Source of the DNA: a virus
DNA length: 43,944 nucleotides
Strand: one strand, 5' to 3'
Virus record (IMG/VR): IMGVR_UViG_3300045996_003834
Span: 1-43,944 of that record
Part shown: piece by piece, positions 163 through 43,944 of the stretch
Layout: every line of letters begins with the position of its first letter
How positions within the stretch are numbered: the stretch's first letter is position 1
Translations under genes and position numbers: made by a program
Notes under the pieces: generated by a model
What the model saw: the letters and a program-made list of their open reading frames with translations, nothing else
What the model was told of the DNA's origin: nothing
Databases searched by the model: none

Positions 163-462
163 TCAACTATCCGTCGGATATCCGTCGAGCCCGATGCGAG
201 GGCGGGGCTTGAAGCCCATGTCCTTGGCGGTCTTGTCGCGGTGACAGGGCTTGCACAGCAGCTGCATGTTAGATGGGGCGTCCTGGCCGCCGTTGACCAA
301 GGCGACCACGTGGTCCAGCTCCACGCCCAGTCGTGGCTCCTGGGCCTTCCTAGCCACGCACATGACGCACCAAGGGTCCTGGAGGGTCATGAGGCGCTTG
401 ATCTCGCCGCGCCTGCGCCCCTCGATCCGTTGGATCCGCCCGTCTTTCCTTCGTTCCACCAT
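163..462 (-). CDS. HNH endonuclease (packaging-associated)
   Basis: A 99-residue HNH nuclease. Zinc-binding CxxC pairs lie at residues 32-35 and 70-73, the Asp-His of the first beta strand at 50-51, and the CxxCH motif ends in His74. The start is supported by AGGAGA six bases upstream of ATG. In HK97-like cos phages an HNH protein encoded next to terminase stimulates the large terminase at the cos site. Here the gene reads towards the left edge, and the small terminase follows on the same strand at the right edge, so the same role is inferred. A homing endonuclease is the alternative, but the small size and position favour packaging. Confidence 0.85.
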   Translation of the reverse strand: MVERRKDGRIQRIEGRRRGEIKRLMTLQDPWCVMCVARKAQEPRLGVELDHVVALVNGGQDAPSNMQLLCKPCHRDKTAKDMGFKPRPRIGLDGYPTDS

Positions 463-729: not shown

Positions 730-2196
730 CTAAAATCCTTTCCGCTCGACGACCTTCAGCCCGCCAGCCCCACGCGCGGCGAGCGCCGCTCCCCGAGCCG
801 CCAAAAGCCCCGGCCGCGCCTCCACCGGAGTGTTCACCCGGAAGAAAGCCATCGCCGAACGGAACGCGCGGCCCGACTCCCGGTCATGGAACTCCCACTT
901 CCCGCCGGCCGGGTTCTTCACCCCGAGGTAGCCCGCCTTTTGCATCCGGTGGCCCACCTTGCGCTTGGACCGGAGCAGCAGCCGCAGGTCGTCGGCGTGG
1001 TCGAACTGCCCCTCCAGCAGCTCGCTGCCGAAGAACACCTCCGGGCGGCCCAGCCGGTCGAGCGCCGCCGTGACGGGGTCGTCCTCGTCGGTGTTGTCGT
1101 CCCAGGTGTTGGCCACCGCCTCCCACCCCGCGGTGCGGGCCACTTGTTGCTTGGGGTTGAAGCGGGAGATGTCCCGCGCGGCGAGGTAGGCGGCGATGTG
1201 GTCTTGGCCGCCGCGCTCCAGCCACCCGAAGAACTCGGTGAAGTAGTCGGGGCGGCCCTCGGCCTCGTGCCACTTTTGCTCCAGCGTGGAGTGCATGACG
1301 AACATGCGGCGGTCCTCGGGCGGGATGTACATGCTCATCCAGTCGTTGGTCGTGATGAACACGCGCATGACGTTGATCACGTAGCGGAGCTTGGCGTACT
1401 TGTCGTTCAGCGGGAGCGTGTCCGGGGGCGCGGCGATCATGGGCTTCAGGATGTTGTACATGCTCGACGCATGGAACTCGTCCTTCGTCGGGCGCACCTC
1501 GTCGACGACGAGCATGAGCGTCTGCAGCCACGGCCGGTACGCCGAGAACAGCTCGTCCGGGTCGATGCCCTTCGAGTTCCACGCGCCCACGGCGGCCTTC
1601 ACGGGCCCGAGCGCGGCGTCCTTGCCGATGCCTTGTTTGCCCGAGAGCACGATCGCCGCGTTGCACTTCACCTCGGGCCGCTGCACCATGTGCGCGCAGT
1701 AGTCGAAGAAGAACTCGTGCTCCACGGGGTCGGGCCAGAGCCGCTTCACGTGGTCCACCCAGGGCCCCGCGGCGCGGGGGTCGCCCGCGGGCTCGGGCGG
1801 CGGGAGGTATTGGTTGTAGATGCGGCGACCCGGCGCCTGGCGGAAGCCGTCCGAGCTGACGAACCAGTCGCGCACGATCTGGGGCTGACCGGGCCACCAC
1901 GTGCTCGACTCGACGAACTGGTCGTTTTCGACGCGCATGATCTCGCGGCTCGGCGGGATCAGCTTCTCCTTGCGCTTTTTGCCGGGGCTCTCGTCCACTT
2001 CCACCGACCAGTATTCGAGCGGCACCGAGGCATCCACGGCTTTCTCGAGGTGGAGCGTGCCGTCGCGCAGGTCCCAGAACGCCTCCTGCGCTTTGTCGAA
2101 GACGTAGTCCTCGCGGCGGGCCAGCCGGCGCGTGCCGGCGAGCTTTTCCTTCAGCGCGGCTTCCCGCGCCGCGGCTCGCTTTTCGATGTCCGTCAT
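730..2196 (-). CDS. SF3-type replicative helicase (DUF5906-like)
   Basis: A 488-residue ATPase of the D5/DUF5906 superfamily-3 helicase kind that drives phage and plasmid replication forks. Visible motifs: Walker A GKQGIGKD at 186-193, Walker B hydrophobics ending in DE at 232-233, sensor-1-like ITTND at 281-285, and a probable arginine finger in PEDRR near 293-297. The start was chosen at 2196, where ATGA overlaps the upstream stop; a longer upstream reading frame overlaps other genes and looks non-coding. It is the last large gene of the early minus operon, whose first gene is the primase at 8265-9203. Relatives often fuse both activities in one chain; here they are split. Confidence 0.85.
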   Translation of the reverse strand: MTDIEKRAAAREAALKEKLAGTRRLARREDYVFDKAQEAFWDLRDGTLHLEKAVDASVPLEYWSVEVDESPGKKRKEKLIPPSREIMRVENDQFVESSTWWPGQPQIVRDWFVSSDGFRQAPGRRIYNQYLPPPEPAGDPRAAGPWVDHVKRLWPDPVEHEFFFDYCAHMVQRPEVKCNAAIVLSGKQGIGKDAALGPVKAAVGAWNSKGIDPDELFSAYRPWLQTLMLVVDEVRPTKDEFHASSMYNILKPMIAAPPDTLPLNDKYAKLRYVINVMRVFITTNDWMSMYIPPEDRRMFVMHSTLEQKWHEAEGRPDYFTEFFGWLERGGQDHIAAYLAARDISRFNPKQQVARTAGWEAVANTWDDNTDEDDPVTAALDRLGRPEVFFGSELLEGQFDHADDLRLLLRSKRKVGHRMQKAGYLGVKNPAGGKWEFHDRESGRAFRSAMAFFRVNTPVEARPGLLAARGAALAARGAGGLKVVERKGF

Positions 2197-4244: not shown

Positions 4245-4697
4245 TCACAGGGCACGCTCCACAGAGAGGTGTTGAAAGAAGCCGCCCTTGGTCGCCGGGG
4301 CGACGGACCAGCGGACGGAGACGGTCCCGAGCGGCGCACGCAGCGAGGGCATCAGCATGGGCCGGAGCTTGCCGTGCCCGCGCATGTTGTCGTACCCCGT
4401 GGCCAGCACCGCCGAGACGGCCGGCGTGACCGGGCCGATGCGCGGCGCGTCCCACGTCCACCCGGCGTAGACCGTGGTGCGGGAGTAGCTGTTGCGGTAC
4501 GCGCCGACGAGCGCGCCGGAGTCGGCCGCCCAGTAGGCGCCGAAGTTGCGGTTGTTGTACGCAACCTGGGTCTTGGTGCCGTCGCTCCAGGAGCGCTCGA
4601 AGTTCGGCGTGGCGTGGCGCGAGACGAGGTGCACCCCGACGGTGTCGGCGTGGGCGGAGCCGGCGAGCAGCGCGGCGAGGATGAAGAGGTGCTTCAT
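4245..4697 (-). CDS. Secreted periplasmic protein, beta-rich
   Basis: A 150-residue protein with a clear Sec signal peptide: lysine at position 2, hydrophobic core, cleavage after AHA at about residue 17. The mature part is rich in Tyr, Asn, Gly and Ser, with an alternating pattern (YNNRNFGAYW, then YRNSYSRTTVYAG) resembling a small envelope beta-protein found in various phages and Proteobacteria. I cannot name the family. It is the first gene after promoter element P3 (4730-4770) and has the AGAAAGGAACTTG leader, so it begins its own transcription unit. A role in altering the cell envelope, for example superinfection exclusion, is inference only. Confidence 0.75.
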   Translation of the reverse strand: MKHLFILAALLAGSAHADTVGVHLVSRHATPNFERSWSDGTKTQVAYNNRNFGAYWAADSGALVGAYRNSYSRTTVYAGWTWDAPRIGPVTPAVSAVLATGYDNMRGHGKLRPMLMPSLRAPLGTVSVRWSVAPATKGGFFQHLSVERAL

Positions 4698-4729
4698 GAG
4701 ACAAGTTCCTTTCTGGTCGAACGAAAGTG

Positions 4730-5319: not shown

Positions 5320-5414
5320 GCTTCATCCTTCTCGCAAAACTCTTTGAAAGTCGGGATGCGATCCAGCCTGTGCTGGTGCTTGGCGCAGTAGGCCCACCAT
5401 TTGGCGCGGCTCAT
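5316..5414 (-). CDS. Tiny protein (32 aa)
   Basis: A short frame coding for a basic, aromatic-rich peptide beginning MSRAKWWAYCAKHQHR. It fills exactly the space between two genes: its start overlaps the upstream stop (5411) as ATGA and its stop overlaps the downstream start (5319) the same way. That double coupling is the main argument that it is translated. Function unknown. Confidence 0.55.
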   Translation of the reverse strand: MSRAKWWAYCAKHQHRLDRIPTFKEFCEKDEA

Positions 5415-6187
5415 TCCGCCTCCCCGGTGATGTCGTGGGCGCGCTCGATGAGTTCGGCCACGAGGCAATCATGGTTCATGTTTTTCAGCGCGTCCCGATC
5501 CGACGGGTACAGAGAGCGGACCATCTGAGCCACGCGCTTTCGCGTCAGCGGCACGCGCTTCGGCTGCGGGGTGGTGTAGAGCAGGGTGCCGTTCCGCACC
5601 TCATCCGTCAGCCATTCGACATCGGGCTTCTTGCGGTTCGTGAACAGCACTCGCGCCACCGGCTCACCCTTCAGCGCAGGCTGCGGGGTGTTGTAGAGCT
5701 TGTCCCCGGCTTGCAGGTCATCCGACAGCGCAACGATGTGCGTCGCGATGCCAGCATTGCCGCCGGTCATCATCGTGCGCACCTCTGCCACCGGCTCACC
5801 CTTCGGCGCAGTCTGCGGGGTGGTGTACAGAGGGCGGAGTTCGTACTTGAAACCCTGGGTGATGTACGCCTCGAACTCCTGCACGCTGTCGGCCACGGTG
5901 CCCATGTGCACGTTGCGCGGCTCGACGCGCTTCCACTCCGACCATCCCGGCTTCGCCGTGAACTCGTTGTGCCACTCCCGGTACTCCCACGCCACCGGCT
6001 CACCCTTCGGCGCCTCGGGGGCGGGCGCTTGCGGGGCGGCGGCGAGTGCTGCGGCGTAGACGCGGGGCTCCCATCCAAGAGCGTTAGGGAGCGTCGAATT
6101 CGCCTTGTGCATGGCGATCTTCATGTCGATTGTGGGCTCCACCGGCACCAGCTTCCACCCGGCCGGCACGTTGCTCTCGTGGCTCAT
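5411..6187 (-). CDS. Repeat protein with PAGWKLVPVE and GEPVA...LYTTPQ modules
   Basis: A 258-residue protein. Residues 6-55 carry the PAGWKLVPVE module that also ends the preceding gene. Then come about three copies of a 50-60 residue unit that begins KGEPVA and ends LYTTPQ or LYNTPQ, followed by a basic C-terminus. Such GEPVA/PLYT repeats are common in uncharacterised phage early proteins and vary in number. The start at 6187 makes an ATGA overlap. Function unknown; the repeats may bind a shared partner. Confidence 0.75.
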   Translation of the reverse strand: MSHESNVPAGWKLVPVEPTIDMKIAMHKANSTLPNALGWEPRVYAAALAAAPQAPAPEAPKGEPVAWEYREWHNEFTAKPGWSEWKRVEPRNVHMGTVADSVQEFEAYITQGFKYELRPLYTTPQTAPKGEPVAEVRTMMTGGNAGIATHIVALSDDLQAGDKLYNTPQPALKGEPVARVLFTNRKKPDVEWLTDEVRNGTLLYTTPQPKRVPLTRKRVAQMVRSLYPSDRDALKNMNHDCLVAELIERAHDITGEAE

Positions 6188-6696
6188 TGCTTGTTCTCCT
6201 GGGGCGCTTGCGGGGCGGCGGCGAGGAAGGCGCGCCACAAGCCTTCACTGCTGACGGCAATCTGCGCCCGCGCTGCACGGCAGGCAGAGCGCATTTTCTC
6301 GGTTGTCTCCACCGGAACCAGCTTCCACCCGGCCGGCACGCTCGCCTGCGATGGGGCGGCGGCGCCCCATGCTCGCGCTTCCATCCAGCGGCGAATGTCT
6401 GCCTTGAACTCATCGCATGCACCTGGGTCATCGAGTGCGGCCGAGAGCCACTTGCCCATCTCCCACTCCTCATTGGAGGCCGGCACCTCTGCCGGCTTCG
6501 GTTCGGGGGATGCGGCGCGCTCGTTCCATTGCGTGCCGCTCCTGTGTCCTTCGTCGCTCGACTCGTGTCGGGCCCCGCAGCTATCGCAGGTGACGATGCA
6601 CGATTGCCGAGGGGTCCCCATCCGCTCGAATGACGCGGCGCCGCCGCAGAACGGGCACGGCAGCAGCGCCGCGCGGTCGTTGTTGTCAGTGGTCAT
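6184..6696 (-). CDS. Lar-like zinc protein with C-terminal PAGWKLVPVE module
   Basis: A 170-residue protein whose first 60 residues match the Lar (restriction alleviation) zinc finger pattern: LPCPFCGG with CxxC at 14-17, a second CxxC at 37-40, and a conserved WN at 57-58. Lar of the Rac prophage modulates type I restriction, but most phage homologues are untested, so anti-restriction is only suggested. Residues from about 119 form the PAGWKLVPVE module shared with the next gene. ATGA overlaps at both ends. Confidence 0.75.
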   Translation of the reverse strand: MTTDNNDRAALLPCPFCGGAASFERMGTPRQSCIVTCDSCGARHESSDEGHRSGTQWNERAASPEPKPAEVPASNEEWEMGKWLSAALDDPGACDEFKADIRRWMEARAWGAAAPSQASVPAGWKLVPVETTEKMRSACRAARAQIAVSSEGLWRAFLAAAPQAPQENKQ

Positions 6697-7004
6697 TTCT
6701 GCGATTCCTTGTAGGCGGTCAGGGCGACGACTGCTGCGTCGAGTGCTTCGGGCAGTGGGGTGACGCGGCGGGTCCAGATTGGCTCCGGGTCGCCGCTGAG
6801 ACGCTTGAACTCGTTGCCGCTGACCATGCCTTGCAACGCCTCCGCCATCTGCCGCACCAGCGCCTCGCGGGCTTCGAGGTGGGTGCGCAGCCGGAACTCG
6901 CACCCGTCCAGGTCCACCTCCTCCGTCTGGTCCCCGTCGTCGGGCACCTCTTCGGCCATGCGGTACTCGCCGGCCAGCCGCATCGCTTCTTCAACGAACT
7001 TCAT
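6693..7004 (-). CDS. Hypothetical helical phage protein (103 aa)
   Basis: An acidic protein with a long helical stretch at about residues 40-65. The final 40 residues (EPIWTRRVTPLPEALDAAVVALTAYK) resemble small early phage proteins of unknown role. The start at 7004 overlaps the stop of the GH16 gene as ATGA, so its translation is tied to that gene. Confidence 0.65.
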   Translation of the reverse strand: MKFVEEAMRLAGEYRMAEEVPDDGDQTEEVDLDGCEFRLRTHLEAREALVRQMAEALQGMVSGNEFKRLSGDPEPIWTRRVTPLPEALDAAVVALTAYKESQK

Positions 7005-8137
7005 TTGTAGCACCTCACGTAGTTGATCTCGAGCGGGCCGAGCTTGTCGTCCACGCCGTTGCGCCCGGCCCACCCGCCGCCCACCGCGTAGTTGATGATC
7101 AGGTGTGCGGGCGCGGCGGGGTGCCCGTCGGCGCGGCGCCAATCCAGCTCGCGGGTGTGCGTGTGCTGGCCGTCCCAGTAGTGCACCACCCGGTCGGGTA
7201 ACCAGTCCAAGCCCACCGTGTGCCACGCGTCCGTCTGGTCCTCCTGCGTGTGCCACGCCATGTTCGGCTCGTCCCAACCGCGCTTGCTGTCCAGCAGCCG
7301 CGTGCGCTGCTCGTCGTGCGGGATCACGCCCGCGTGCACCATGTTGGGCTTGTCGGTGGCGCCGTCGTTCACGTACTCGAAGACGTCGATCTCGGGCGGC
7401 CATTCCAGCCGGCCATCGCTGGACACGTCCGGGTTGAGCCACATGGCGGGGAACACCCCGCGGCCCTTGGGGAGCCGGACGCGCGCCTCGAAGAACCCGT
7501 ACAAGAACGTCCGGTCCGACCGGATCATCCCCGAATCCCACAGCCCATCCGCCCGGCGCCGCGGCTGGATCTTCAGCACGCCGCCCGACACTTGGTGCAG
7601 GTCGGTGTACCGCTGCAGCTCGGTGATCAAGTGGTCCTTCTTGCCGTCCTCGTAGATGAACCGCGTGTGCCACTTGTCGCGGTCGAGCGCCGTGCCTTCG
7701 AACTCGTCGTTGAACGCCAGCCGCCGCCCGGCTGGCACCGCGCTGGCCTTGTTCCAGATGGTGGGCTCGGTTTGCGCCCGGGGCGGCGCAGCCTCCGTGC
7801 TCACCGAGTACAGGTCGGCCCGGTTGCCGAAGGTTTGCACCACGATGCGCGCGCTCTGGGTGAAGTTCGGCGCCGCGAAGACGATCTCGACGCGTTGTCG
7901 CTGGTTGCCGCGCACGGTGCGCACGAAGTTGCGGACGATGCCGCCGTCGGCGGCGCGGAACTCCACCGCCACGGTGCACGAGCCGCTGAGGGTCGCGTTG
8001 CGCAGCTCGGCGACGACCTTGTGCGTCTCTCCGGGCTTCCACCCGCTCACGGGGAGTGACGTTTGCCAGCCCACGTCCAAGCGATCCGCGAACCGCACCG
8101 CGTAGGCCATGTCCCAGGCCAAGTTGATCAGCTCCAT
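7001..8137 (-). CDS. Glycoside hydrolase family 16 (beta-glucanase/laminarinase-like)
   Basis: A 378-residue protein. Residues about 136-378 form a GH16 domain: FNDEFEGTALDRDKW opening, SGMIRSDRTF and YGFFEARVRLP strands, AMWL, and the catalytic signature EIDVFE at 249-254 (E249 nucleophile, E254 acid/base). The six-residue form with an inserted Phe is the beta-bulge type known from laminarinases and lichenase relatives. Residues about 25-115 look like a separate beta-sandwich, perhaps carbohydrate binding. GH16 enzymes cleave beta-1,3/1,4-glucans, agarose or carrageenan; the substrate cannot be read from sequence. No signal peptide is visible. AGGAGG precedes the ATG. The gene lies in the early operon, not the tail module. 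It may act on capsular glucan at lysis or be packaged; both are inference. Confidence 0.9.
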   Translation of the reverse strand: MELINLAWDMAYAVRFADRLDVGWQTSLPVSGWKPGETHKVVAELRNATLSGSCTVAVEFRAADGGIVRNFVRTVRGNQRQRVEIVFAAPNFTQSARIVVQTFGNRADLYSVSTEAAPPRAQTEPTIWNKASAVPAGRRLAFNDEFEGTALDRDKWHTRFIYEDGKKDHLITELQRYTDLHQVSGGVLKIQPRRRADGLWDSGMIRSDRTFLYGFFEARVRLPKGRGVFPAMWLNPDVSSDGRLEWPPEIDVFEYVNDGATDKPNMVHAGVIPHDEQRTRLLDSKRGWDEPNMAWHTQEDQTDAWHTVGLDWLPDRVVHYWDGQHTHTRELDWRRADGHPAAPAHLIINYAVGGGWAGRNGVDDKLGPLEINYVRCYK

Positions 8138-8268
8138 TGTTCTTCCTCCTGTTGTTGCGGCGCGGCGGGGCGCCCTTGGTAGACCGGAGCGACTTGCCGC
8201 TCCGCGTATTCCGCCATGTCATCCATCATCTCCGTCGGCGTCTCGGGCCGCTGCTGAGGGGGCTTCAT
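8128..8268 (-). CDS. Small Gln/Pro-rich protein (46 aa)
   Basis: A short acidic protein with a Pro/Gln-rich start and a Gln/Glu-rich end, probably disordered. The start at 8268 overlaps the primase stop as ATGA, and it overlaps the GH16 start by 10 bases. Function unknown; the coupling argues that it is translated. Confidence 0.55.
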   Translation of the reverse strand: MKPPQQRPETPTEMMDDMAEYAERQVAPVYQGRPAAPQQQEEEQWS

Positions 8269-9203
8269 GCCGCCTCCCGCGCGGCGGCGGCCTCCAGCTC
8301 GTCGAGGGCTTGGTCGTTGATCCAGTCGGTCAGCTCCGCCCAACCCCGGTCGGCGCAGTGGCCGTGGTGGCAGCGGAACGCCCCGTAGAACTCGTTCTCC
8401 TCCGCCGGCTCGCGCACCGCGGCGCCCGTGTCGGCGCCGGCCGTGTGGTCTTCGAGCCACGGACACGTCATCTCGGTCCACCCGCTCGGGTCGGGCTCCT
8501 CGCGCTTCAGCATCCGGCGCGCGGCGAGGAACTTGTACGCATCGGTGTACGCGCGGTTGCGCTCCAGCGCTTCTTCGGTCTGGAGCCGCTCGCGGCGTTG
8601 GCGACGGCCGTTGATCTGGAGGCCGAACGCGGCGAGCAGCTCGTCGCACGTGTACCGCCGGCCGGAGGCTTCGCGCAGCTGCACGCGCCACCCGCCGTAG
8701 GCCGCCTTGCCGTTCAGGAACCCCGGGAGCCGCCCGACCCGCGTCACCCCGGACATCCCCGGGTCGGCGCCGAGGAGCTTGCCGGAGATGAACGCCCGGA
8801 TCACCCCGTCGAACCGCGCGGCGTCGCGCTCGGGCTCGGAGAGCAAGTACCACCACTGCTCGTTGCCCGGGGAGGTTTCGATGCGCAGCGTGGGCGGCAC
8901 CCCCGCGACGACAGCCCGGTCGACCTTGGTGCCCACGTCGTCCACCATGAGCGCCCGCCCCGCGGCGAACGTCTCGGTGCGGCGCCGGAACGACCCGTCC
9001 GCGGCCCGCCGGAACGACCCCACCGTCACGTACCCGTTCCACGCCTCCGGCAGCACCAGCTCCCCGCCCAGCCGCCAGGGCCGAGGGCGCCACGCGGTGG
9101 TGGGAGCGTTGTTGGGGTCGCCGGGGAAGCCGCAGAGGATCAGCCGCTCGTCCGGGGGCATGTCCGCCCCGAGCGCGGCCAGGAAGCTTTCCGCATCCGT
9201 CAT
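8265..9203 (-). CDS. RepB/PrimPol-type DNA primase
   Basis: A 312-residue protein matching the RepB-like archaeo-eukaryotic primase fold: DD at 88-89 in ALMVDDVGTKVD as metal ligands, TSPGNEQWWYL at 110-120 as the nucleotide-binding loop, and RVGRLPGFLNGK with a following YGG. The C-terminal part carries CPWLEDHT and FRCHHGHC, a zinc-binding arrangement typical of such phage primases. The start at 9203 follows the leader CAGAAAGGAACTTG; an earlier in-frame codon lies inside the promoter region. It would synthesise primers for the SF3 helicase-driven fork and for DnaE. It is the first gene of the minus operon. Confidence 0.85.
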   Translation of the reverse strand: MTDAESFLAALGADMPPDERLILCGFPGDPNNAPTTAWRPRPWRLGGELVLPEAWNGYVTVGSFRRAADGSFRRRTETFAAGRALMVDDVGTKVDRAVVAGVPPTLRIETSPGNEQWWYLLSEPERDAARFDGVIRAFISGKLLGADPGMSGVTRVGRLPGFLNGKAAYGGWRVQLREASGRRYTCDELLAAFGLQINGRRQRRERLQTEEALERNRAYTDAYKFLAARRMLKREEPDPSGWTEMTCPWLEDHTAGADTGAAVREPAEENEFYGAFRCHHGHCADRGWAELTDWINDQALDELEAAAAREAA

Positions 9204-9236
9204 GACCAAGTTCCTTTCTGTTGTGTCGAGGCCCGA

Positions 9237-9263
9237 ATTGTGCTCCAAGTTCTGGTCGGGCAA
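9237..9263 (-). promoter_or_regulatory. Promoter P4 for the early minus operon
   Basis: On the minus strand TTGCCC (9258-9263) and CACAAT (9237-9242) with 15 bp between, or TTTGCC with 16. Upstream is an AT-rich tract. Core sequence TTGCCCG...GAGCACAAT parallels P3 (TTGCCCG...GAGCATAAT) but lacks three bases and a clear inner box. It shares the TGAAGCAA box at 9284-9291 with the divergent promoter P1. Confidence 0.5.
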
Positions 9264-9283
9264 ATGAAATATTTTTTTGCGAT

Positions 9284-9334
9284 TGAAGCAAAAAGTTGTT
9301 GCCGATCGAGCAAAAGTGGCGCATGATTGCTTCA
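9284..9334 (+). promoter_or_regulatory. Promoter P1 with three operator half-sites
   Basis: TTGCCG (9299-9304), 17 bp, CATGAT (9322-9327). Half-sites of the TGAAGCAA type: 9284-9291, 9306-9313 (TCGAGCAA) and inverted TTGCTTCA at 9327-9334, spaced 22 and 21 bp, two helical turns each. It drives the gene at 9360 and lies back to back with P4. The whole 9204-9359 gap is regulatory. Confidence 0.7.
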
Positions 9335-9359
9335 TCGACACTCAGAAAGGAACTTGATC

Positions 9360-9632
9360 ATGACCCTCCCCGTCGCCCGCCGCTTGTTGAAAGAGCTGGC
9401 TTGCATCGCTGTCGAACGGCCCCTCACGAAGCCCGAGCGCACCATGACCTTCTTTTTCAGCCCCTTCGCCCGCCTGGCCGACCGAGTCGAGGTGTCCTAC
9501 CTGCGGTTCTGCCTGAAGCACATCGAGCAAGATCTGGCCCAGTTGGAGCTGCAGCGCGGCGTCTGGGAGCAAGAGCGCGACCGCATCCGCGTCGAGCTGG
9601 CCGCCATGGGCGAACTGCGCTCGGAGGACTGA
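9360..9632 (+). CDS. Hypothetical early protein, coiled coil (90 aa)
   Basis: First gene of the rightward operon. The N-terminal half is basic and aromatic (MTFFFSPFARLADRVE); residues about 55-85 form a strong heptad-like coiled coil. The leader CAGAAAGGAACTTG precedes ATG 9360. Function unknown; as the first gene after the divergent control region it is a candidate for an early regulator, but it has no visible HTH. Confidence 0.6.
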   Translation: MTLPVARRLLKELACIAVERPLTKPERTMTFFFSPFARLADRVEVSYLRFCLKHIEQDLAQLELQRGVWEQERDRIRVELAAMGELRSED

Positions 9633-9635
9633 GCG

Positions 9636-9788
9636 ATGCACGAGTACAAAGTCGTCTTCTGGGGTGCGCGCGGCGAGGTTTTGGCCACCGTCGTGGTGCT
9701 CGAGAAGTCCACGGGCCGCGCCAAGTGCCGCGCCAACGAGCTTGTCACGTGCTCCTGGGTGCTGATGACTGCCGAGCGCGTTCGCTGA
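9636..9788 (+). CDS. Small protein (50 aa)
   Basis: A short frame from ATG 9636 to TGA 9788 coding for a beta-rich, basic peptide starting MHEYKVVFWGARGEVLATVVV. GGAG lies upstream. It ends just before promoter P2. Resembles other tiny early phage proteins; function unknown. Confidence 0.55.
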   Translation: MHEYKVVFWGARGEVLATVVVLEKSTGRAKCRANELVTCSWVLMTAERVR

Positions 9789-9797
9789 CTTCACGAT

Positions 9798-9848
9798 TGA
9801 AGCAAAAATTGCTTGCCTTGAAGCAAAAGTTAGAGCAGAATTGCTTCA
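9798..9848 (+). promoter_or_regulatory. Promoter P2 with three operator half-sites
   Basis: TTGCCT (9813-9818), 17 bp, CAGAAT (9836-9841). Exact TGAAGCAA copies at 9798-9805 and 9819-9826 and the inverted TTGCTTCA at 9841-9848, spaced 21 and 22 bp. The first copy also forms AAGCAA-AAA-TTGCTT with the next bases. It drives the gene at 9869. Confidence 0.75.
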
Positions 9849-9868
9849 TCAACAGAAAGGAACTTGAA

Positions 9869-10015
9869 ATGAACGCACTGACCTCCTTCAAAGCTCTCGT
9901 CACCGCTCCGAACGGCGACAAGTCCGTCATGACCGTGAAGGCCGCGTCCGAGAAAGCCGCCCTCGCCCGCTTCGACCGGATGGGCTTCGTCTCGGTCCGT
10001 TGGATCGTCGCCTGA
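9869..10015 (+). CDS. Small protein (48 aa)
   Basis: Starts at ATG 9869 after the leader CAGAAAGGAACTTG and promoter P2. The peptide has a beta-beta-alpha-beta look, with VMTVKAASEKAALARFDRMGF in the middle, similar to small phage proteins that alternate strands and a helix. Function unknown. Confidence 0.55.
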   Translation: MNALTSFKALVTAPNGDKSVMTVKAASEKAALARFDRMGFVSVRWIVA

Positions 10016-10034
10016 CCACACCGAAGGACACGAA

Positions 10035-10208
10035 ATGAACGCAACCATCACCCGCCAAGACGTTGAACAAGCTGCAAAGGACGCATGCCTTGATGTTCTG
10101 GAGGCCATCAGCCGCATGCAGATGGTCGCCAGCAGGGCTGGTGATGAAAAGCTTCTGGATCGCCTCTGCGAAATCAAGGCTGAAGTGATCGAGGCCTATC
10201 TGGCCTAA
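10035..10208 (+). CDS. Small helical protein (57 aa)
   Basis: A frame from ATG 10035 to TAA 10208 with AAGGA upstream. Almost entirely helical by eye (EQAAKDACLDVLEAISRMQM and a second helix to the end), acidic, with two cysteines. Function unknown. A UUCG hairpin follows the stop directly. Confidence 0.55.
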   Translation: MNATITRQDVEQAAKDACLDVLEAISRMQMVASRAGDEKLLDRLCEIKAEVIEAYLA

Positions 10209-10214
10209 CACCCC

Positions 10215-10228
10215 GGCCCTTCGGGGCC
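10215..10228 (+). other. UUCG tetraloop hairpin
   Basis: GGCCC-TTCG-GGGCC, a 5-bp GC stem closed by the very stable UUCG tetraloop, in the 43-bp gap between two small early genes. There is no uridine run, so a role in mRNA 3'-end protection or attenuation is more likely than simple termination. Confidence 0.5.
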
Positions 10229-10251
10229 TCACAACCAGAAAGGAACTTGCC

Positions 10252-10443
10252 ATGGAAACCGTTCAGTTCATCCGCATCGACGGCACCGTCGACGACATCC
10301 CCGTCACGACCGTGCAGGAGCTGCAGAGCACGATCGCCGAGGAGCTGCTGATTCACGGCGCCACGCTGCTTTGCGCGGTGCACACGCTGCTGCTCTCGGG
10401 CGTGATCGTCGCGGACAGCGGCACCGTGGTGGCGTTGCACTGA
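10252..10443 (+). CDS. Small protein (63 aa)
   Basis: Starts at ATG 10252 after the leader CAGAAAGGAACTTG. The C-terminal half (residues 33-60) is hydrophobic and could be a membrane segment, though interspersed His and Cys make this uncertain. The next gene starts at its stop as TGATG. Function unknown. Confidence 0.55.
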   Translation: METVQFIRIDGTVDDIPVTTVQELQSTIAEELLIHGATLLCAVHTLLLSGVIVADSGTVVALH

Positions 10444-10619
10444 TGCGCGCCGGCCGCAAGCGTGGCGAAGAGCACGCGTGGCACAGCTCCTTCGTCGAGA
10501 CGCAGTTCCAGGAGTCGCAGCGTGTGCGTGAACTCCTGTCCCCTCACCAACCCGTTCCCCGCCGACCGAGCCGCAGCTGGTTCGGGCGGCTCTTGCGTGC
10601 CGTTTGGCGCGCGCTCTGA
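10443..10619 (+). CDS. Small basic protein (58 aa)
   Basis: Shares the A of the upstream stop (TGATG). Strongly basic, with Arg-rich ends (MRAGRKRGEEHAW and SRSWFGRLLRAVWRAL), the last part a possible amphipathic helix. Could bind nucleic acid or membranes; no family recognised. Confidence 0.5.
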   Translation: MRAGRKRGEEHAWHSSFVETQFQESQRVRELLSPHQPVPRRPSRSWFGRLLRAVWRAL

Positions 10620-10638
10620 AGCTCCCGAAGGAGGACCC

Positions 10639-11274
10639 ATGACAGAGAAAATTCTCCGCTCGCAATCCGAGATCCCCGACGCCAGCATGGCCGATCTGCT
10701 CGCCACCTACAACGCGCTCACCGGCCAGAGCGTGCGTCGCTTCTCGAGCCGCGCGGTGGGCGAGGGCCGGGTGCGCATGGCGATCCTGGCCGCCACCGAC
10801 GCGGCCGGGCACGCCGGAGTTCCCCGCGGCACGGTGCCGCTGCCCAAGACCCAGGCCGAGCTGCGGATGAAGGCTGCCGAGCTGGCCAAGCTGGAGGAGC
10901 ACACGTGCGTCGAGCCCACCCCGGTGCCCCCGCCCGCCGACGGCAACCCCTACCCCAAGGGCTCCACCGAGAGCGGCTTGTGGTACACCGCGCGCAAGGC
11001 TGAAGCCGCGCTGCGGCTCAAGCCCCCCGTCAAGAAGCGCCAGAAGCGCACCACGCCGCCCTTCGTCGCCGTGCGCGCGACGTTCGCCGGCAGCAGCAAG
11101 CCCCAAGCCGCCAGCTTGCGCGCCGAGATCCTGCGCAGCATCCAAGGCTTCGCCCCGAAGGGCGTGACCATCGAGGCGCTGAACGCGCTCTACGAGGCGC
11201 CCGTCCGCAGCTACGTGCAGAAGCTGATGGAGAAGAAGCACGTCGAGCCGTGCTCCAAAGAGGATTGCGCATGA
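10639..11274 (+). CDS. Putative DNA-binding protein (211 aa)
   Basis: GAAGGAGG precedes ATG 10639. The N-terminal region contains ATYNALTGQSVRRFSSRAVGE, a pattern seen at the start of several phage and bacterial DNA-binding proteins (LYN-TGK-VKRF-R). Residues about 95-150 are Pro/Lys-rich and linker-like. The C-terminal 50 residues (GVTIEALNALYEAPVRSYVQKLMEK) look like a winged helix-turn-helix. It is the best regulator candidate in this operon and might recognise the AGCAAAA operators, which is inference. The stop overlaps the next start as ATGA. Confidence 0.65.
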   Translation: MTEKILRSQSEIPDASMADLLATYNALTGQSVRRFSSRAVGEGRVRMAILAATDAAGHAGVPRGTVPLPKTQAELRMKAAELAKLEEHTCVEPTPVPPPADGNPYPKGSTESGLWYTARKAEAALRLKPPVKKRQKRTTPPFVAVRATFAGSSKPQAASLRAEILRSIQGFAPKGVTIEALNALYEAPVRSYVQKLMEKKHVEPCSKEDCA

Positions 11275-12197
11275 GCCGCGCCCCCGTCATCGTGGGCGCC
11301 GGGCTCGCCGGGCTGATCGCCGCGCACGCGTGGCCCCGGTCCCCGGTGTTCGAGGCCGCCCCGGCCCCGCGGCTGGGTCACGCGGCGCTGCTCCGGTTTC
11401 GATCGGACGCCGTCGCCCGGCTCACGGGCGTCGACTTCCGCCGCGTGCAGGTGCGCAAGGGCGTGTGGTCCGAGGGCGCGTACCGGCCCGTGGATATCCG
11501 GCTCGCCAACCAGTACGCCCACAAGTGCCTGGGCCGGATCGCGGGCGACCGCAGCATCTGGTCGCTGGAGCCGGTGGAGCGGTTCGTGGCGCCGGACGAC
11601 TTCTACGAGCGGCTGATCGAGCACACCAAGGGCCGCGTCGAGTGGGACACCGAGTTCAACTTCGGCAGCTCCACGGGCCGCATCGTCTCCACCGCGCCGC
11701 TGCCGATCGTGCTGGGGTCGCTGGGCATCGAGCACGACCTGACGTTCGAGCGGGCGCCGATCACGGTGGTGCGCGGCCGGGTGGAAGGCGCCGACGTGTT
11801 CCAGACGACGTACTTCCCGGACAGCCACACCCAGCTCTATCGCGCCTCGATCACGGGCTCGACGCTGATCGCCGAGTTCGCCTCGAACCAAGTGCGCGAC
11901 CACGACGCGCGGCTGGACTTGCTGACCATCGAAGCGGCGTTCGGTTTGCCCCGCGGCTCGATCAAGGTGCAAGACACCGTGGAGCAGAAGTACGGCAAGA
12001 TCGCCCCGCTCGCCGCCGAGGTGCGCAAGGCGCTGTTGTTCCGGCTCACGCAGGAGCGCCGGATCTACTCGCTCGGGCGGTTCGCCACGTGGCGCAACAT
12101 CTTGCTCGACGACGTGGTCACGGACATCGGCGTGATCAAGAACTTGCTCGCCAACAACGCCGTCGGGTACGACCTGCTGCAAGCCGCGGCCCGATAA
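11271..12197 (+). CDS. FAD-dependent oxidoreductase
   Basis: A 308-residue protein starting with a dinucleotide-binding Rossmann motif GAGLAG (residues 9-14). The second strand ends in an acidic FEA at about 34, as in FAD-binding amine-oxidase or UDP-galactopyranose-mutase-like folds. The rest does not match a family I can name. Translationally coupled to the upstream gene by ATGA and followed 27 bases later by the flavin-dependent thymidylate synthase, so a role in nucleotide metabolism or DNA base modification is suggested by position only. Confidence 0.75.
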   Translation: MSRAPVIVGAGLAGLIAAHAWPRSPVFEAAPAPRLGHAALLRFRSDAVARLTGVDFRRVQVRKGVWSEGAYRPVDIRLANQYAHKCLGRIAGDRSIWSLEPVERFVAPDDFYERLIEHTKGRVEWDTEFNFGSSTGRIVSTAPLPIVLGSLGIEHDLTFERAPITVVRGRVEGADVFQTTYFPDSHTQLYRASITGSTLIAEFASNQVRDHDARLDLLTIEAAFGLPRGSIKVQDTVEQKYGKIAPLAAEVRKALLFRLTQERRIYSLGRFATWRNILLDDVVTDIGVIKNLLANNAVGYDLLQAAAR

Positions 12198-12224
12198 TTC
12201 TCCTTCCCCTTCAGAAAGTTGATC

Positions 12225-12947
12225 ATGAAAGTCACCCTCATCAGCGCAACGCAGGACGCCGCCGCGTTGCTGCTCTTCACGAAGAACACGCGGCTGAACA
12301 TGTCCGCCGACAACCTCGGTCGCTTCAAGGCGATGACCGCCGAGCAGATGCTCCCCGAGCTGCGCGCGATGGCCCGCACGATTCGGTCGTCGTGGGAGTT
12401 CGTGGACGTGATCTTCGCGGTCGAAGGTCTCACTCGCTCCACCGCACAGCAGGTGACGCGCAGCCGGCAGGCCAGCTTCGCCATGCAGTCCCTGCGCGTG
12501 GTGGACGCGAGCGACATCGACATCATCAACCCATACGAGGAAGAGCCCGACTCCAGCAAATTCGGTGCGTACGCCGAGAACGCAGAGAACTGCCGCGACA
12601 CGTACCAGTTCCTGATGGACAGCGGCTCTTCCAAGGAAGACGCACGCGACGCGTTGCCCATGGGCACTTCGTCCAATCTCGTGGCCAAGTACAACCTCCG
12701 GGCCTTCGCCGACCTCGTGGCCGCGCGGTCTTCGTTGCGCGCCCAGGGGCCGTACCGCGAGATGGTGGCCGAGATGCGCCGCCAGGTTGTCGAGTTGTGG
12801 CCCTGGGCTGAAGAGTTCTTCCGCCCCGCGAACGAGGAAGCGATCACGATGCTGGAGGAGGTCGTGAAGTCGATCGGCCTCACGACGGGCAGCGGCCCCG
12901 GATGGGAGATCGCCAAGGCCATCGACCTGCTGCGGAAGGGTGCCTGA
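12225..12947 (+). CDS. thyX: Flavin-dependent thymidylate synthase (ThyX) with variant signature
   Basis: A 240-residue ThyX homologue, which would make dTMP from dUMP using methylene-tetrahydrofolate and FAD. The signature is at residues 79-91: RSRQASFAMQSLR, against the canonical RHRxxSxNExSxRY. The Arg, Ser and final Arg are kept; the His, Asn and Tyr positions differ. The C-terminal part has EDARDALPMGTSSNL and FADLVAARSSLRAQGPYRE, matching the ThyX LP-T and RSL-H-R-AQ-EI regions. Start ATG 12225 with AGAAAG upstream; an earlier TTG is less likely. Variants with a divergent signature occur in phages; an altered substrate is possible but not shown. Confidence 0.85.
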   Translation: MKVTLISATQDAAALLLFTKNTRLNMSADNLGRFKAMTAEQMLPELRAMARTIRSSWEFVDVIFAVEGLTRSTAQQVTRSRQASFAMQSLRVVDASDIDIINPYEEEPDSSKFGAYAENAENCRDTYQFLMDSGSSKEDARDALPMGTSSNLVAKYNLRAFADLVAARSSLRAQGPYREMVAEMRRQVVELWPWAEEFFRPANEEAITMLEEVVKSIGLTTGSGPGWEIAKAIDLLRKGA

Positions 12948-12949
12948 TC

Positions 12950-13906
12950 ATGAACCAACAGTTCTTCATCTGCGACATCGACAACTGCATCAGCGACGAC
13001 CGCTCGCGCATCCCGCTCATCGACTGGCACCAGACCGACCTGAACAAGCGCTACGCGGCGTATCATGAGGCTTTCGAACGAGACTTTCCGCACGAGCCGT
13101 CGTGCGAGATCGTGCGCCGTCGCATCCAGCAGGGGCAGACCCCGCTCTACATCACCGGGCGGCCCGAAGCGTTCCGCAAAGGCACCATCGAGTGGCTGCA
13201 GCGACACAACTTGTTGTTGATCGATCCGGGCGCACCCGTTTGCGTCATGCTGATGCGACCGAACGGAAACACGGACGGCTCCGTCGAATTGAAGAAGCAC
13301 CTCCTCGCGGGGTTTCGCGAGCGGCGCGGCAAGGGCGTTTGGATCGATCACGCCTACGACGACCGCGAGGACATCGTGCAGATGTACCGCGACAGCGGCC
13401 TGAGCGCCAGCGTCCTGAAGTGCCACAGCGTGGACGCGTACGCGCCGCCCAAGCGCGACTGGCTCCGCGAGGCGCTCCCGGGCGTTTCGGCCAGCGCCGA
13501 CAACTGGAAGGCGGCTGTGGAGGCACAGAGGATCAAGCTCAGCATCGGCTACCACGAAGGCAAGGACGACCCCAAGCCCGCCCCCGCACGCGACGCGGCA
13601 GACATCCTCGCCACCGCGTCCAAGACCTACCGCGAACGCAACGCGGTCTACGGCGACAACTACAAGCACTTCGGCAAAGTGATGAAGGGGTTGTTCCCGC
13701 GAGGGTTGCACGTCGAATCGATCGACGACTGGAACCGCCTCGGCGTGTTGGTGCAGGTGGCGTCCAAGTTGAGCCGCTACGCGCAGAATTTCTCCGCGGG
13801 CGGGCACGTCGACTCGGCGCACGATGCAGCTGTGTACGCCGCGATTCTGCAGGAGCTGACCGAAGATAGCTTGGCGCGGCGCGAGGACCCAGGGGCGGGG
13901 CGATGA
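12950..13906 (+). CDS. HAD-family phosphatase fused to MazG-like domain
   Basis: A 318-residue two-domain protein. Residues 1-165 are a HAD phosphatase similar to the 3'-phosphatase part of polynucleotide kinase: DID at 9-11 with D11 as general acid, ITGR at 68-71, Lys115 or 116, and HAYDDRED near 134-141 as the acidic motif. Residues about 212-303 resemble a MazG-like (DUF6378) NTP pyrophosphohydrolase helical domain: YRERNAVYGDNYKHF, then ASKLSRYAQNF and HDAAVYAAILQEL. Together they might clean up nucleotides or DNA ends. GGAAGGG lies upstream of ATG 12950; the stop overlaps the exonuclease start. Confidence 0.8.
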   Translation: MNQQFFICDIDNCISDDRSRIPLIDWHQTDLNKRYAAYHEAFERDFPHEPSCEIVRRRIQQGQTPLYITGRPEAFRKGTIEWLQRHNLLLIDPGAPVCVMLMRPNGNTDGSVELKKHLLAGFRERRGKGVWIDHAYDDREDIVQMYRDSGLSASVLKCHSVDAYAPPKRDWLREALPGVSASADNWKAAVEAQRIKLSIGYHEGKDDPKPAPARDAADILATASKTYRERNAVYGDNYKHFGKVMKGLFPRGLHVESIDDWNRLGVLVQVASKLSRYAQNFSAGGHVDSAHDAAVYAAILQELTEDSLARREDPGAGR

Positions 13907-14451
13907 GTTCGGGGCTGATCCTCGTGCACGACTGGGAGACCACGGGGCTGACGCTGCACCCGGACGCCGATGTCCGCAAGCAGCCCCGGGCGATCGAGTT
14001 CGGGGGAGCGTTGCTGAGTCGGGAGACCGGCGAGGTGGTGGAGACACTCTCCTTGCTGATCAACCCGGGGCAGGCGTTGGAAGCCGTGATCACGAAGATC
14101 ACCGGCCTGACGGACGCCGACCTCGCCGACGCTCCCAGCTTCGTGGACGCCTTGCCGCAGCTGCAGCACATCTTCCGGCAGGCGACAGCCGTCGTCGCGC
14201 ACAACTTGCCGTTCGACCGGCAGATCTTGCGCGGCGAGCTGGCCCGGGCGAACTTGACCGAGTTCCCCTGGCCCGCGCGGGAGTTGTGCACGGTGGGCGA
14301 GTTCACGCCGCTGTGGGGCCGGATGCCCAAGCTGACGGAGGTGTACGAGTGGGCGATGGAGCGGCCCCTGCCGCAGACCCACCGAGCGCTGGACGACGTG
14401 CTGGCCCTGGTGGAGATCATTCAACGACAACAGATCTGGAGGCACTTGTGA
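13903..14451 (+). CDS. DnaQ-like 3'-5' exonuclease (proofreading)
   Basis: A 182-residue DEDDh exonuclease. Exo I is DWETTG (D10, E12), Exo II HNLPFD (H100 to D105), Exo III THRALDD (H160, D164). This is the fold of the Pol III epsilon subunit; its length equals the catalytic domain alone, with no visible C-terminal clamp or alpha-binding tail. It is joined to the polymerase gene by a GTGA overlap, which favours a role as the dedicated proofreader of the phage polymerase. Confidence 0.9.
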   Translation: MSSGLILVHDWETTGLTLHPDADVRKQPRAIEFGGALLSRETGEVVETLSLLINPGQALEAVITKITGLTDADLADAPSFVDALPQLQHIFRQATAVVAHNLPFDRQILRGELARANLTEFPWPARELCTVGEFTPLWGRMPKLTEVYEWAMERPLPQTHRALDDVLALVEIIQRQQIWRHL

Positions 14452-17315
14452 TCCCACAACTGCGCGTCCGCAGCGAGTTCACGTTCCGGGACGGCGGGCG
14501 GGACATCGCAACCTTCGCCCCCGTGGGCCGGCTGGCCGCGGCGTTGGCCGCAGCCGAGTGCCCCGCCGCGGGAATCGTGGACGGCGGCACATGGGGGCAC
14601 GTGAAGTGGCTGAAGGCTTTGAGCAAGACCACCACGGCGCCATTATTCGGCACCGAGCTCACCGTTCCCCAACCCGACGGAAAGAAACCCAAGGCGTGGG
14701 CGCTGGCCGCGGACACGAAGGCGTTCTACCGGTTCAGCACCGCCGCGCGGCAGGAAGGCGCCGACATCGAAGCGCTCTTCCGGACCAGCCCCGGGCTCGT
14801 GCGGTTCGCGGGCGCCGCGCTCACCGACCCGGAAGCGTTCGACTACGTGGACCTGAACCCCGCGTCGCTCGCCCAGCAGTCGCGTTCGCTGGAGCTGGCG
14901 CGACGCACTGGCAAGCCGCTCGTCCTCACGAGCGACAACGCCTACGCGACGCGCGCCGACTACGCCGCGTTCATGGCCATCTCGGGTCGCTCGAAGATCA
15001 CCCCGCAACACTTGTTGCTCGACCCGGACGAGCTGCGCCGGACGTTCCCGACGCTGACGGACGCCGAGTTCGACCGGGCGGTCGTCAACACACACGAGGC
15101 GGCAAGCCGCTGCGCGCGGCAGCTGCCCACGGCGCCGATGATCTCGTTCGAGTACGACCTGCCCGCCGCCGCCCGCGCTGGGCAGGCGGCGCGGCTCGCC
15201 AAGGGGCACATCGCCGAGTGGAACCCGACCTACGAGGCGCGGCTGCAGCACGAGCTGAAGGCCATTGCAGAGAAAGGCTTCGAGAGCTACTTCTACGTGG
15301 TGGCGGACTTGATCGCGTGGGCCAAGCGCCACATGCTTGTTGGCCCGGGCCGCGGGTCGTCGGCTGGATCGTTGGTGTGCTACGTGCTCGGCATCACCGA
15401 GGTGGACCCCCTGCCGCATGGGCTGCTGTTCGAGCGGTTCATCGACCTCACCCGCAAAGATCTCCCCGACATCGACATCGATTTCTCGCAGCAACACTTG
15501 TGCTTCGAGTACTTGTCGCACAAGTACGGCGCGCGTAACGTAGCCCGGCTCGGCAACATCAACACAATGAAGCCCCGCACCGTGATGGGCCGCGTGGGGG
15601 AGGTGTTCGGAATCCCCAAAGAGGAGGTGTTTGGGCTGCTGAACGTGTTGATCGAGTACAGCTCTGGCGACAGCCGCTACGGGCATTCGCTCGAAGACAC
15701 CCTCGTCGGCACCGAGCCGGGCCGGGCCTTTGTGCGCCGGCACCCCGAGGCGCAACTCATGGGCGTGGTCGAGAATCACGCCACGCACACCGGCGTGCAC
15801 GCGGCAGGGGTGGTGGTGTCCAACGCGCGGCTCGACGAGTTCTGCACCGTCAAGGACGGCGTGGCTCAGCTGGACAAGCCCGACAGCGAGCACCTCAACC
15901 TGCTGAAAATCGACGCGCTGGGGCTGACGACATTGAGCGTGATTGAGGACAGCGGCTGCGTCACCGCGGAGCAGCTCTACGCGCTGAAGCTCGACGACCC
16001 CGCCGCGCTCGCCGTTCTCAACCAAGGCAAGTTCGCCGGGGTGTTCCAGTTCGAGGGCCAGGCGCAGCGCACCGTCGCCTCGCAGATCGACATCCGGTCG
16101 TTTCGTGAAATCGACCACATCACCGCCCTCGCCCGGCCGGGCCCCTTGGGCGGCGGCGCCACCAACAAGTACATCGCCCGCGCCGCGGGGCGCGAGCCCG
16201 TCACATTCCGCCACCCGTCCATGGAGACCTATCTCGGCGAGACGCTGGGGTTGGTGTTGTACCAGGAACAGGTGATGCGCATTGCATTCGAGATTGGCTG
16301 CCTCTCGTGGGAGGTGGTCGCCGAGATCCGCAAGGCCATGTCCGGCCGCAAAGGCAAAGAGTACTTCGACCGACGCGGCGCGGAGTTCGTCGCGGGGGCA
16401 CAGACGCGTGGGTTCTCCGCCGCGGAGGCGCAGTCCATCTGGGACGAGATCTGCTCCTTCGGGGCGTGGGGGATGAACAAGAGCCACACTTGCGCCTATG
16501 CGGTGATCGCGTACTGGTGCGCGTGGATGAAGGCGCACCACCCGCTGGAGTACGCGGCGGCGTGTCTGCGGCAAGCAGGCTCCACCGGCGACAAGGCCGA
16601 GGCCAAGACGCTCGAGCTGTTGCGGGAGATGCACGCCGAAGGCATCACCTACTCCGCGTTCGACCCCGACCTGAGCGACGTGGACTGGGCCGCGGTGGAC
16701 GGCAACCTGGTCGGCGGGTTCAAGAACCTCGTCGGCTTCGGTCCGGCCAAGGCTGTGCAAGCCGTGGAGGCGCGGCGCACCGGCACGATGACGGAGAAGC
16801 TTCGGGAGCGCATCGCCAAGGCGACCGTGCGGTACACAGAGATGTTCCCTATCGCCGCCGCGTGGCGTCGCGTGTACGAAGAGCCCGAGTCGGTCGGATG
16901 CATGCCCGGGTCGGTGGTGCTGCGCGCCGATCAGTTCCCGCAGAACGGCGGCGAGGTCTTGTTCCTGGGCAAGGTCTCGAAGAAGGAAATGCGCGACGAG
17001 AACGAGACGGTCCGGCTGGCCCGCCGCGGCGGCAAGCGCAAGGAGGGGCCGACGCTGTTCGCCGACATCTTCGTGCTTGACGATTCCGGGATCCCCATCA
17101 TCTGTCGGATCCCTCCCGTCGAGCGCCGTGACCGGTACACTCGCCAACTGACCGCCGCGGGATTCGAGCCGCTGGGCCGCCGCGCCCTGGAGGAGCTGCG
17201 GGCGGAAGAGGACGTGGTGTTGGTCCGGGGCCACAAGGTGCCCGGGTTCCCGATGGTGCAAGTTTTGCGGATGAAGTGTCTGACGCGACCGGAGGCGCTG
17301 AATGAGAAAGACTGA
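14448..17315 (+). CDS. dnaE-like: DNA polymerase III alpha subunit (DnaE-type)
   Basis: A 955-residue C-family replicative polymerase, shorter than E. coli DnaE (1160). The start is GTG 14448, overlapping the exonuclease stop as GTGA with GGAGG five bases upstream. Visible: GPGRGSSAGSLV near 299-310, catalytic DID at 343-345 within PDIDIDF, third Asp at 489 (LLKIDALGL), HAAGVVVS, YQEQVM and GMNKSHTCAYAV. The N-terminal PHP-like region reads RVRSEF where bacterial enzymes have HVHSD, so its metal site looks lost. Beyond the fingers the protein is short; a possible OB-like region (GEVLFLGKVSKKEM to VLDDSG) follows. It should copy the phage genome. Confidence 0.95.
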   Translation: MIPQLRVRSEFTFRDGGRDIATFAPVGRLAAALAAAECPAAGIVDGGTWGHVKWLKALSKTTTAPLFGTELTVPQPDGKKPKAWALAADTKAFYRFSTAARQEGADIEALFRTSPGLVRFAGAALTDPEAFDYVDLNPASLAQQSRSLELARRTGKPLVLTSDNAYATRADYAAFMAISGRSKITPQHLLLDPDELRRTFPTLTDAEFDRAVVNTHEAASRCARQLPTAPMISFEYDLPAAARAGQAARLAKGHIAEWNPTYEARLQHELKAIAEKGFESYFYVVADLIAWAKRHMLVGPGRGSSAGSLVCYVLGITEVDPLPHGLLFERFIDLTRKDLPDIDIDFSQQHLCFEYLSHKYGARNVARLGNINTMKPRTVMGRVGEVFGIPKEEVFGLLNVLIEYSSGDSRYGHSLEDTLVGTEPGRAFVRRHPEAQLMGVVENHATHTGVHAAGVVVSNARLDEFCTVKDGVAQLDKPDSEHLNLLKIDALGLTTLSVIEDSGCVTAEQLYALKLDDPAALAVLNQGKFAGVFQFEGQAQRTVASQIDIRSFREIDHITALARPGPLGGGATNKYIARAAGREPVTFRHPSMETYLGETLGLVLYQEQVMRIAFEIGCLSWEVVAEIRKAMSGRKGKEYFDRRGAEFVAGAQTRGFSAAEAQSIWDEICSFGAWGMNKSHTCAYAVIAYWCAWMKAHHPLEYAAACLRQAGSTGDKAEAKTLELLREMHAEGITYSAFDPDLSDVDWAAVDGNLVGGFKNLVGFGPAKAVQAVEARRTGTMTEKLRERIAKATVRYTEMFPIAAAWRRVYEEPESVGCMPGSVVLRADQFPQNGGEVLFLGKVSKKEMRDENETVRLARRGGKRKEGPTLFADIFVLDDSGIPIICRIPPVERRDRYTRQLTAAGFEPLGRRALEELRAEEDVVLVRGHKVPGFPMVQVLRMKCLTRPEALNEKD

Positions 17316-17721
17316 GCAGAAGCTCTGGGACAGATTCCGCAACAAGGCCCCCATAAGGGTGCTGTTGCTGCGAGTCGAAAACGTCGTCGGCGAGCCAGGA
17401 TTCCCGGACGTGCTCGCGCTGGTCGCCGGCAACACGACGTTGGTAGAATTGAAAGCTGTGGCCGCGCCCCCTGTCCGCCCGACGACGCGGCTGCTGGGGA
17501 ACGATGGCCTGAGCATCGACCAGCGCAACTGGCACCTCGCCTGGAACCGCGCGGGCGGCAAGAGCTGGATTCTTGTCGGCTGCGGTTCCTTCGATCACTG
17601 GCTGTTGCCGGGCCGACTGGCCGATTCGATCAATGGCATGACCTGCGCGGACTTGACCCAGCTCGCTGCAGCAACCGATTGGACAAGCATCTTCGAGGTG
17701 CTGGGAGACAAGAAGAGATGA
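17302..17721 (+). CDS. VRR-NUC-like PD-(D/E)xK nuclease
   Basis: A 139-residue protein with the VRR-NUC pattern: an early Glu (E5), GFPD with D36, VELKA with E49 and K51, and later QRNWHLAWNRAGGKSWILVG. Relatives of this size in phages are probably structure-specific nucleases for resolving replication or recombination intermediates. It overlaps the polymerase stop by 14 bases and the helicase start by 4, so it is co-translated with the replication genes. Confidence 0.85.
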   Translation: MRKTEQKLWDRFRNKAPIRVLLLRVENVVGEPGFPDVLALVAGNTTLVELKAVAAPPVRPTTRLLGNDGLSIDQRNWHLAWNRAGGKSWILVGCGSFDHWLLPGRLADSINGMTCADLTQLAAATDWTSIFEVLGDKKR

Positions 17722-20076: not shown

Positions 20077-20120
20077 GCCCGTTCCCTCGCTCGACAAACT
20101 CAACTTCAGAAAGTCACGCC

Positions 20121-43870: not shown

Positions 43871-43908
43871 TTTGCTCTCCTGATTGACGCAGAAAAGTGC
43901 TGCGCCCA

Positions 43909-43937
43909 ATTCTGCTTTCTAAAACCTGTCTGTGCAA
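43909..43937 (-). promoter_or_regulatory. Promoter P5 for the late operon
   Basis: On the minus strand TTGCAC (43932-43937), a 17-bp AT-rich spacer, then CAGAAT (43909-43914), the same -10 as P2. It stands 39 bp before the small terminase start and would read the packaging, head and tail genes. The AGCAAAA operator boxes of P1-P3 are not present here, which would let late genes respond differently. Confidence 0.6.
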
Positions 43938-43944
43938 ATGCGCT

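Follow-up and report, generated by a model that had tools for sequence, protein, structure and literature searches.

Searches for phage depolymerases, like their annotation, centre on tail modules, and most of those known are parts of the virion. Viral genes encoding GH16 enzymes have been described from other settings: protein A094L of chlorovirus PBCV-1 is a GH16 beta-1,3-glucanase that is active on laminarin, expressed early and not packaged, and degradation of stored glucan has been proposed for it (PMC9614988); GH16 genes of environmental viruses from soil and permafrost have been presented as AMGs (PMC6460857, PMC10127799); and gp10 of Curtobacterium phage Daddyjeff contains a GH16 domain. 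Here we describe a predicted GH16 endo-glycanase gene lying between two replication genes of a virus represented by a 43,944-base IMG/VR record (the whole of which is referred to below as the window), and document the clade to which it belongs, the genomic neighbourhoods its members occupy and the uses to which such an enzyme might be put.

The ORF occupies the interval assigned to it in a first-pass annotation of the sequence, with the strand corrected to minus; its 378 codons begin with an ATG, and there is no in-frame start further upstream. The identification made there of a GH16 hydrolase with a complete EIDVFE motif held under each comparison. Pfam Glyco_hydro_16 (PF00722) matches the protein with E=8.6e-16 and a score of 58 bits (cut-off 22), its top PDB sequence match is the Rhodothermus laminarinase 3iln (4.6e-22), and an AF2 model (mean pLDDT 82.5, residues 1-22 disordered) has a laminarinase-like fold, the catalytic domain of which retrieved GH16 laminarinase structures of the beta-jelly-roll type in Foldseek (E-values down to 2.6e-16, probability 1.0). 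The catalytic series E249-I-D251-V-F-E254, an E-x-D-x-x-E arrangement on one strand, is intact, and its three acidic residues are invariant in an alignment of 39 sequences comprising the window protein and 38 relatives. A hydropathy check (not SignalP) found no signal-peptide-like hydrophobic stretch, in agreement with the earlier reading. Residue 171 is Ile, at a position held in 95% of relatives by the Asn of an NNE motif. This deviation means that activity and specificity cannot be assumed. The NNE Asn is a conserved feature of the laminarinase-type subfamily GH16_3; laminarinases are the nearest solved structures, but we do not claim membership of that subfamily. By its frame, predicted fold and motif, the gene most likely encodes a catalytically competent GH16 endo-glycanase, for which we infer hydrolytic activity.

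The extra beta-sandwich domain proposed from the sequence was also recovered: the AF2 model places the strands of a separate N-terminal sandwich at residues 38-116. This domain matched no Pfam family at E<=1. The nearest relative of the window protein, encoded on a 350-kb viral contig (L124), is 41% identical over residues 51-378, a span that includes both domains. A low-confidence model of its homologous N-terminal domain (two input sequences; mean pLDDT 57, 70-80 in the core) gave as top Foldseek matches CBM16 (~6e-5) and CBM4-type modules, together with other carbohydrate-binding modules; the window domain may accordingly be a carbohydrate-binding module. Aligning this domain in MAFFT with fragments of bacterial GH16 proteins gave nothing meaningful, so the case for its homology depends on the pair formed by the window and L124 proteins. 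The 378-residue window protein showed no fibre, spike or tail-anchor domain.

A gene map built from codon usage places the gene in a leftward unit that comprises, in order, the primase, a 46-residue ORF, the GH16 gene, a 103-residue ORF, a Lar-like gene, a 258-residue ORF, small genes, and the PagP-like, D5 helicase and HNH genes (Table 1). A single message almost certainly serves for the translation of six of these genes: from the primase through the 258-residue ORF, each start codon runs into the stop of its predecessor, mostly as ATGA. Thus the GH16 gene does reside, as first annotated, in a chain that starts with a primase, of RepB type; the main replication operon, however, is the divergent rightward unit at 9360-21005, which includes ThyX-like, kinase, exonuclease, PolIII alpha and SNF2 helicase genes. 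The position of the GH16 gene, between the primase and the D5 helicase, lies outside the tail module, and the tail genes are found elsewhere in the window. Past the D5-like helicase and HNH genes the leftward unit runs on towards TerS/TerL, the direction of late transcription. Codon usage, gene overlaps and the order of modules are consistent across the contig, and an assembly artefact was ruled out.

Table 1. Features of the leftward unit and its leader in the 43,944-base window.
Feature	Position	Strand	Basis or remarks
14-nt leader upstream of primase	9207..9220	-	CAGAAAGGAACTTG; exact copies elsewhere in window
RepB-type DNA primase, first gene of leftward operon	8265..9203	-	Pfam RepB_primase 1.6e-11; PHROG DNA primase 3.6e-32
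46-residue ORF joining primase and GH16 via overlapping start/stop	8128..8268	-	no family match
GH16 endo-glycanase gene (predicted)	7001..8137	-	residues ~1-130 CBM-like beta-sandwich; ~136-378 GH16 catalytic domain with E249/D251/E254
103-residue ORF	6693..7004	-	ATGA overlap with GH16 stop; no family match
Lar-like restriction alleviation protein	6187..6696	-	Pfam PF14354 (on overlapping longer ORF); TIGR03655; PHROG 599
258-residue phage protein, end of overlapping chain	5411..6187	-	gene map, sequence
PagP-like protein with signal peptide	4245..4697	-	PHROG 3600 6e-8; hydropathy; own leader copy at 4702-4715
D5/DUF5906-type primase-helicase	730..2196	-	PHROG DNA primase 7.8e-19; DUF5906
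HNH endonuclease	163..462	-	family matches; last gene ahead of terminase if contig ends abut

The replication genes resemble those of Pbunavirus/Wifcevirus-like phages of gamma- and betaproteobacteria, and TerL belongs to a different lineage. This mosaicism is apparent in a Pbunavirus/Wifcevirus-like module at 8265-17315, the primase relatives of which have a differing TerL (26-31%), and in TerL itself (41680-43440), which is 57% identical to that of a Halomonas phage and up to 74% identical to sequences of environmental contigs. The HNH gene lies at one end of the contig and TerS at the other (1-160 and 43870-43944), a spacing like that of HNH-TerS-TerL in three other contigs (L084, L105, L114), so that the record probably represents an almost complete genome, circularly permuted and opened at this point. 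In the rightward unit, genes for a FAD-type protein (PHROG 4828), a ThyX/thymidylate-synthase-like protein and a polynucleotide-kinase-like protein (11271-13906, plus strand) lie ahead of those for the exonuclease and PolIII alpha; the cluster is conserved in primase relatives and Pbunavirus-like phages, and possibly represents a thymine hypermodification pathway.

The leader upstream of the primase occurs in five exact copies, each directly ahead of a gene start: the one at the primase, three copies at 9343, 9853 and 10236 on the plus strand that precede rightward genes, and one at 4702 on the minus strand that precedes the PagP-like gene. When up to three mismatches were allowed, the window contained 11 matches against 1.9 expected. 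In most relatives a leader of the AGAAAGGA type precedes the primase, and replication genes there. This common leader ties the primase operon to the rightward replication genes as an expression signal, and the copy ahead of the PagP-like gene is probably a second start within the leftward unit. That gene, of a type associated with lipid A acylation, could serve in outer-membrane modification or in superinfection exclusion. Scans for promoters and terminators revealed nothing beyond chance. As the leftward unit heads into TerS/TerL, late read-through is possible, and early expression of the GH16 gene is something we infer from the gene overlaps that join it to the primase and from the shared leader.

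Comparison with related genomes indicates how the gene came to occupy this position. A related primase was present in 36 viral contigs (57-76% identity), and in L093, L101, L103, L104, L109-L111, L115 and L117 it is directly followed by the D5/DUF5906 helicase, which we regard as its ancestral neighbour. In other relatives 0.1-3.1 kb of variable small genes come between the two, so that the interval ranges over 0-3.1 kb among relatives, against ~6 kb in the window. No GH16 gene was found in the primase-relative loci or in 80 TerL-related loci, and a PF00722 search of whole related virus records, many of which may be fragments, gave 0 of 26 with GH16. An interval that is variable, empty in several relatives and devoid of GH16 in them marks the window gene as a lineage-specific insertion in a cargo site. 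In two contigs (L106:9294-10409 and L107:11208-12323) the same site holds a 371-residue ORF that, read by eye, resembles a cytosine methyltransferase.

Alignment-based scans were needed to recover the GH16 relatives; a pattern scan of viral contigs with one protein alone yielded none, and tblastn against phage records gave only two matches, both weak. In each of two trees the window sequence falls within a supported group (100/99 and 100/98) that has 12-13 viral members and a single bacterial one, marked by motifs of the WPPEID, SGMxRS and LNDExQRYR type. Thirteen of the 14 rows in this clade are viral, a ratio that is no census, since the sequences were sampled for their resemblance to the window and with peptide patterns. 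Members occupy disparate modules. The GH16 gene of L129 closes a rightward series that includes genes for a HJ (Holliday junction) resolvase, a helicase, a PD-(D/E)XK nuclease, a ssDNA-binding protein and DNA polymerase A, and virion/structural genes converge from the other strand. In L133 the gene has an O-like replication initiator on one side and RusA on the other, and TerL follows 4.3 kb downstream. It adjoins the portal gene in L125, L127, L132, L135 and L265, and in L260 it is found among genes resembling tail/virion genes. The GH16 proteins encoded beside the portal gene in these phages have a proline-rich N-terminus. In the tree L129 is nested among members that adjoin portal genes, and the gene has thus switched modules. 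Placement in replication regions is recurrent and not exclusive. The sole bacterial member found is an enzyme of Caulobacter sp. D5 that bears a signal peptide and is encoded in a locus of exopolysaccharide type, with glycosyltransferases, acyltransferases and an epimerase; a wider search for a second close relative in Caulobacteraceae found none, the next best match having E 4e-21.

These distributions bear on the first-pass proposal of an early enzyme retained in the cytoplasm until lysis. It gains from the leader that the primase shares with rightward early-region genes, and from the two unrelated phages in which clade members occupy replication regions; it is weakened by the other members that adjoin portal or tail genes, and by the course of the leftward unit into late genes. 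On balance we give an even chance to a scenario in which a GH16 endo-glycanase is made with the replication proteins, freed at lysis and directed at host exopolysaccharide. The gene would be accessory cargo that settled where the replication operon varies, between the genes for the primase and the D5-type helicase. Having no signal for export, its product, probably translated together with the primase and starting in early or middle infection, would build up in the cytoplasm. Lysis would set it free to cut beta-linked host exopolysaccharide or capsule that surrounds the burst cell and those next to it, and progeny could then leave and get to new cells. Of the two substrates originally suggested, the setting of the closest bacterial relative, an exopolysaccharide locus, speaks for capsule or slime, though not necessarily of beta-glucan, rather than for intracellular glucan.

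The main rival role, to which we assign a minor but appreciable probability, is that of a packaged depolymerase, decorating tail or capsid and opening slime at adsorption, the gene of which happens to lie outside the structural module. Such a role would conform to the virion location of most known phage depolymerases and to the annotation of the Daddyjeff GH16 protein as a minor tail protein encoded upstream of the terminase, and the clade members next to portal or tail-type genes leave room for it in the window. It is opposed by the lack of any recognised fibre, spike or tail-anchor domain, by an N-terminal domain that resembles carbohydrate-binding modules instead, by the position in replication operons shared with L129 and L133, and by the presence of the window's own tail genes elsewhere. 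The missing signal peptide and co-expression with replication genes are also compatible with an intracellular metabolic AMG that digests cytoplasmic or nascent host polysaccharide, thereby feeding replication or halting capsule production, and the early, non-packaged chlorovirus enzyme, with its proposed action on stored glucan, offers a precedent. We consider this improbable: Proteobacteria, should the host be one of them, are not known to store cytoplasmic beta-glucan of such kind, the closest bacterial relative has an export signal and an exopolysaccharide setting, and a fused CBM-like domain fits polymeric substrates.

Least probable of all, in our estimate, is an environmental role, as the soil and permafrost genes have been read (PMC6460857, PMC10127799), in which the lysis-released enzyme would degrade plant or algal beta-glucan and aid the community and not phage spread; the selective benefit to the phage would be weak, and the closest relatives are phages and an exopolysaccharide-locus enzyme, not members of laminarin-use loci. 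The Ile at position 171 and the long branch of the window sequence in the tree might instead denote a degenerate protein whose sole function is that of a lectin, or a gene carried along passively, which is likewise improbable given a full-length frame in a compact phage genome, retention of all catalytic residues and a strong ribosome-binding site. It is conceivable, if rather unlikely, that this phage-dominated lineage was repeatedly put in replication operons of unrelated phages because early cytoplasmic synthesis was itself selected, whether to build an enzyme load for lysis or to cut capsule polymer during its intracellular assembly and so stop capsule production. If release at lysis is correct, the non-exported members of the clade in replication operons would form a separate class of soluble, lysis-released glycanases missed by tail-centred searches. 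Their existence raises the question of how phages handle host exopolysaccharide after, rather than before, infection, and those viral GH16 genes that are catalogued as carbon-cycling AMGs may promote the spread of phages.

Set against described systems, the window enzyme shares with GH16 laminarinases and endo-beta-1,3(4)-glucanases (PDB 3iln, 6xof [SCLam], 3azx and 7wwc) the fold, the E-x-D-x-x-E motif and ~25-30% identity overall; it differs in being phage-encoded, in having no export signal, in belonging to a separate clade and in carrying Ile171 instead of Asn. The L124 protein is likewise a two-domain GH16 without a signal peptide, but has a longer N-terminal domain and different surroundings, its neighbours being a dCMP deaminase and a DNA-ligase-like gene and, at 4-9 kb upstream, fibre-like and GDSL genes. 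The Caulobacter sp. D5 enzyme (L169/L257) falls in the same clade, with 40% identity over residues 72-375 (tblastn), and is set apart by its signal peptide, a C-terminal extension and a chromosomal location. A094L is also a viral GH16, but of a eukaryotic algal virus that has no phage replication operon, and the Daddyjeff GH16 domain, also from a phage, belongs to a protein of ~913 residues with 27% identity. Our literature search found, in searchable papers, no phage-dominated GH16 clade recurring in replication operons. Viral GH16 genes themselves are already known; what is new is their recurrent placement in the replication operons of phages.
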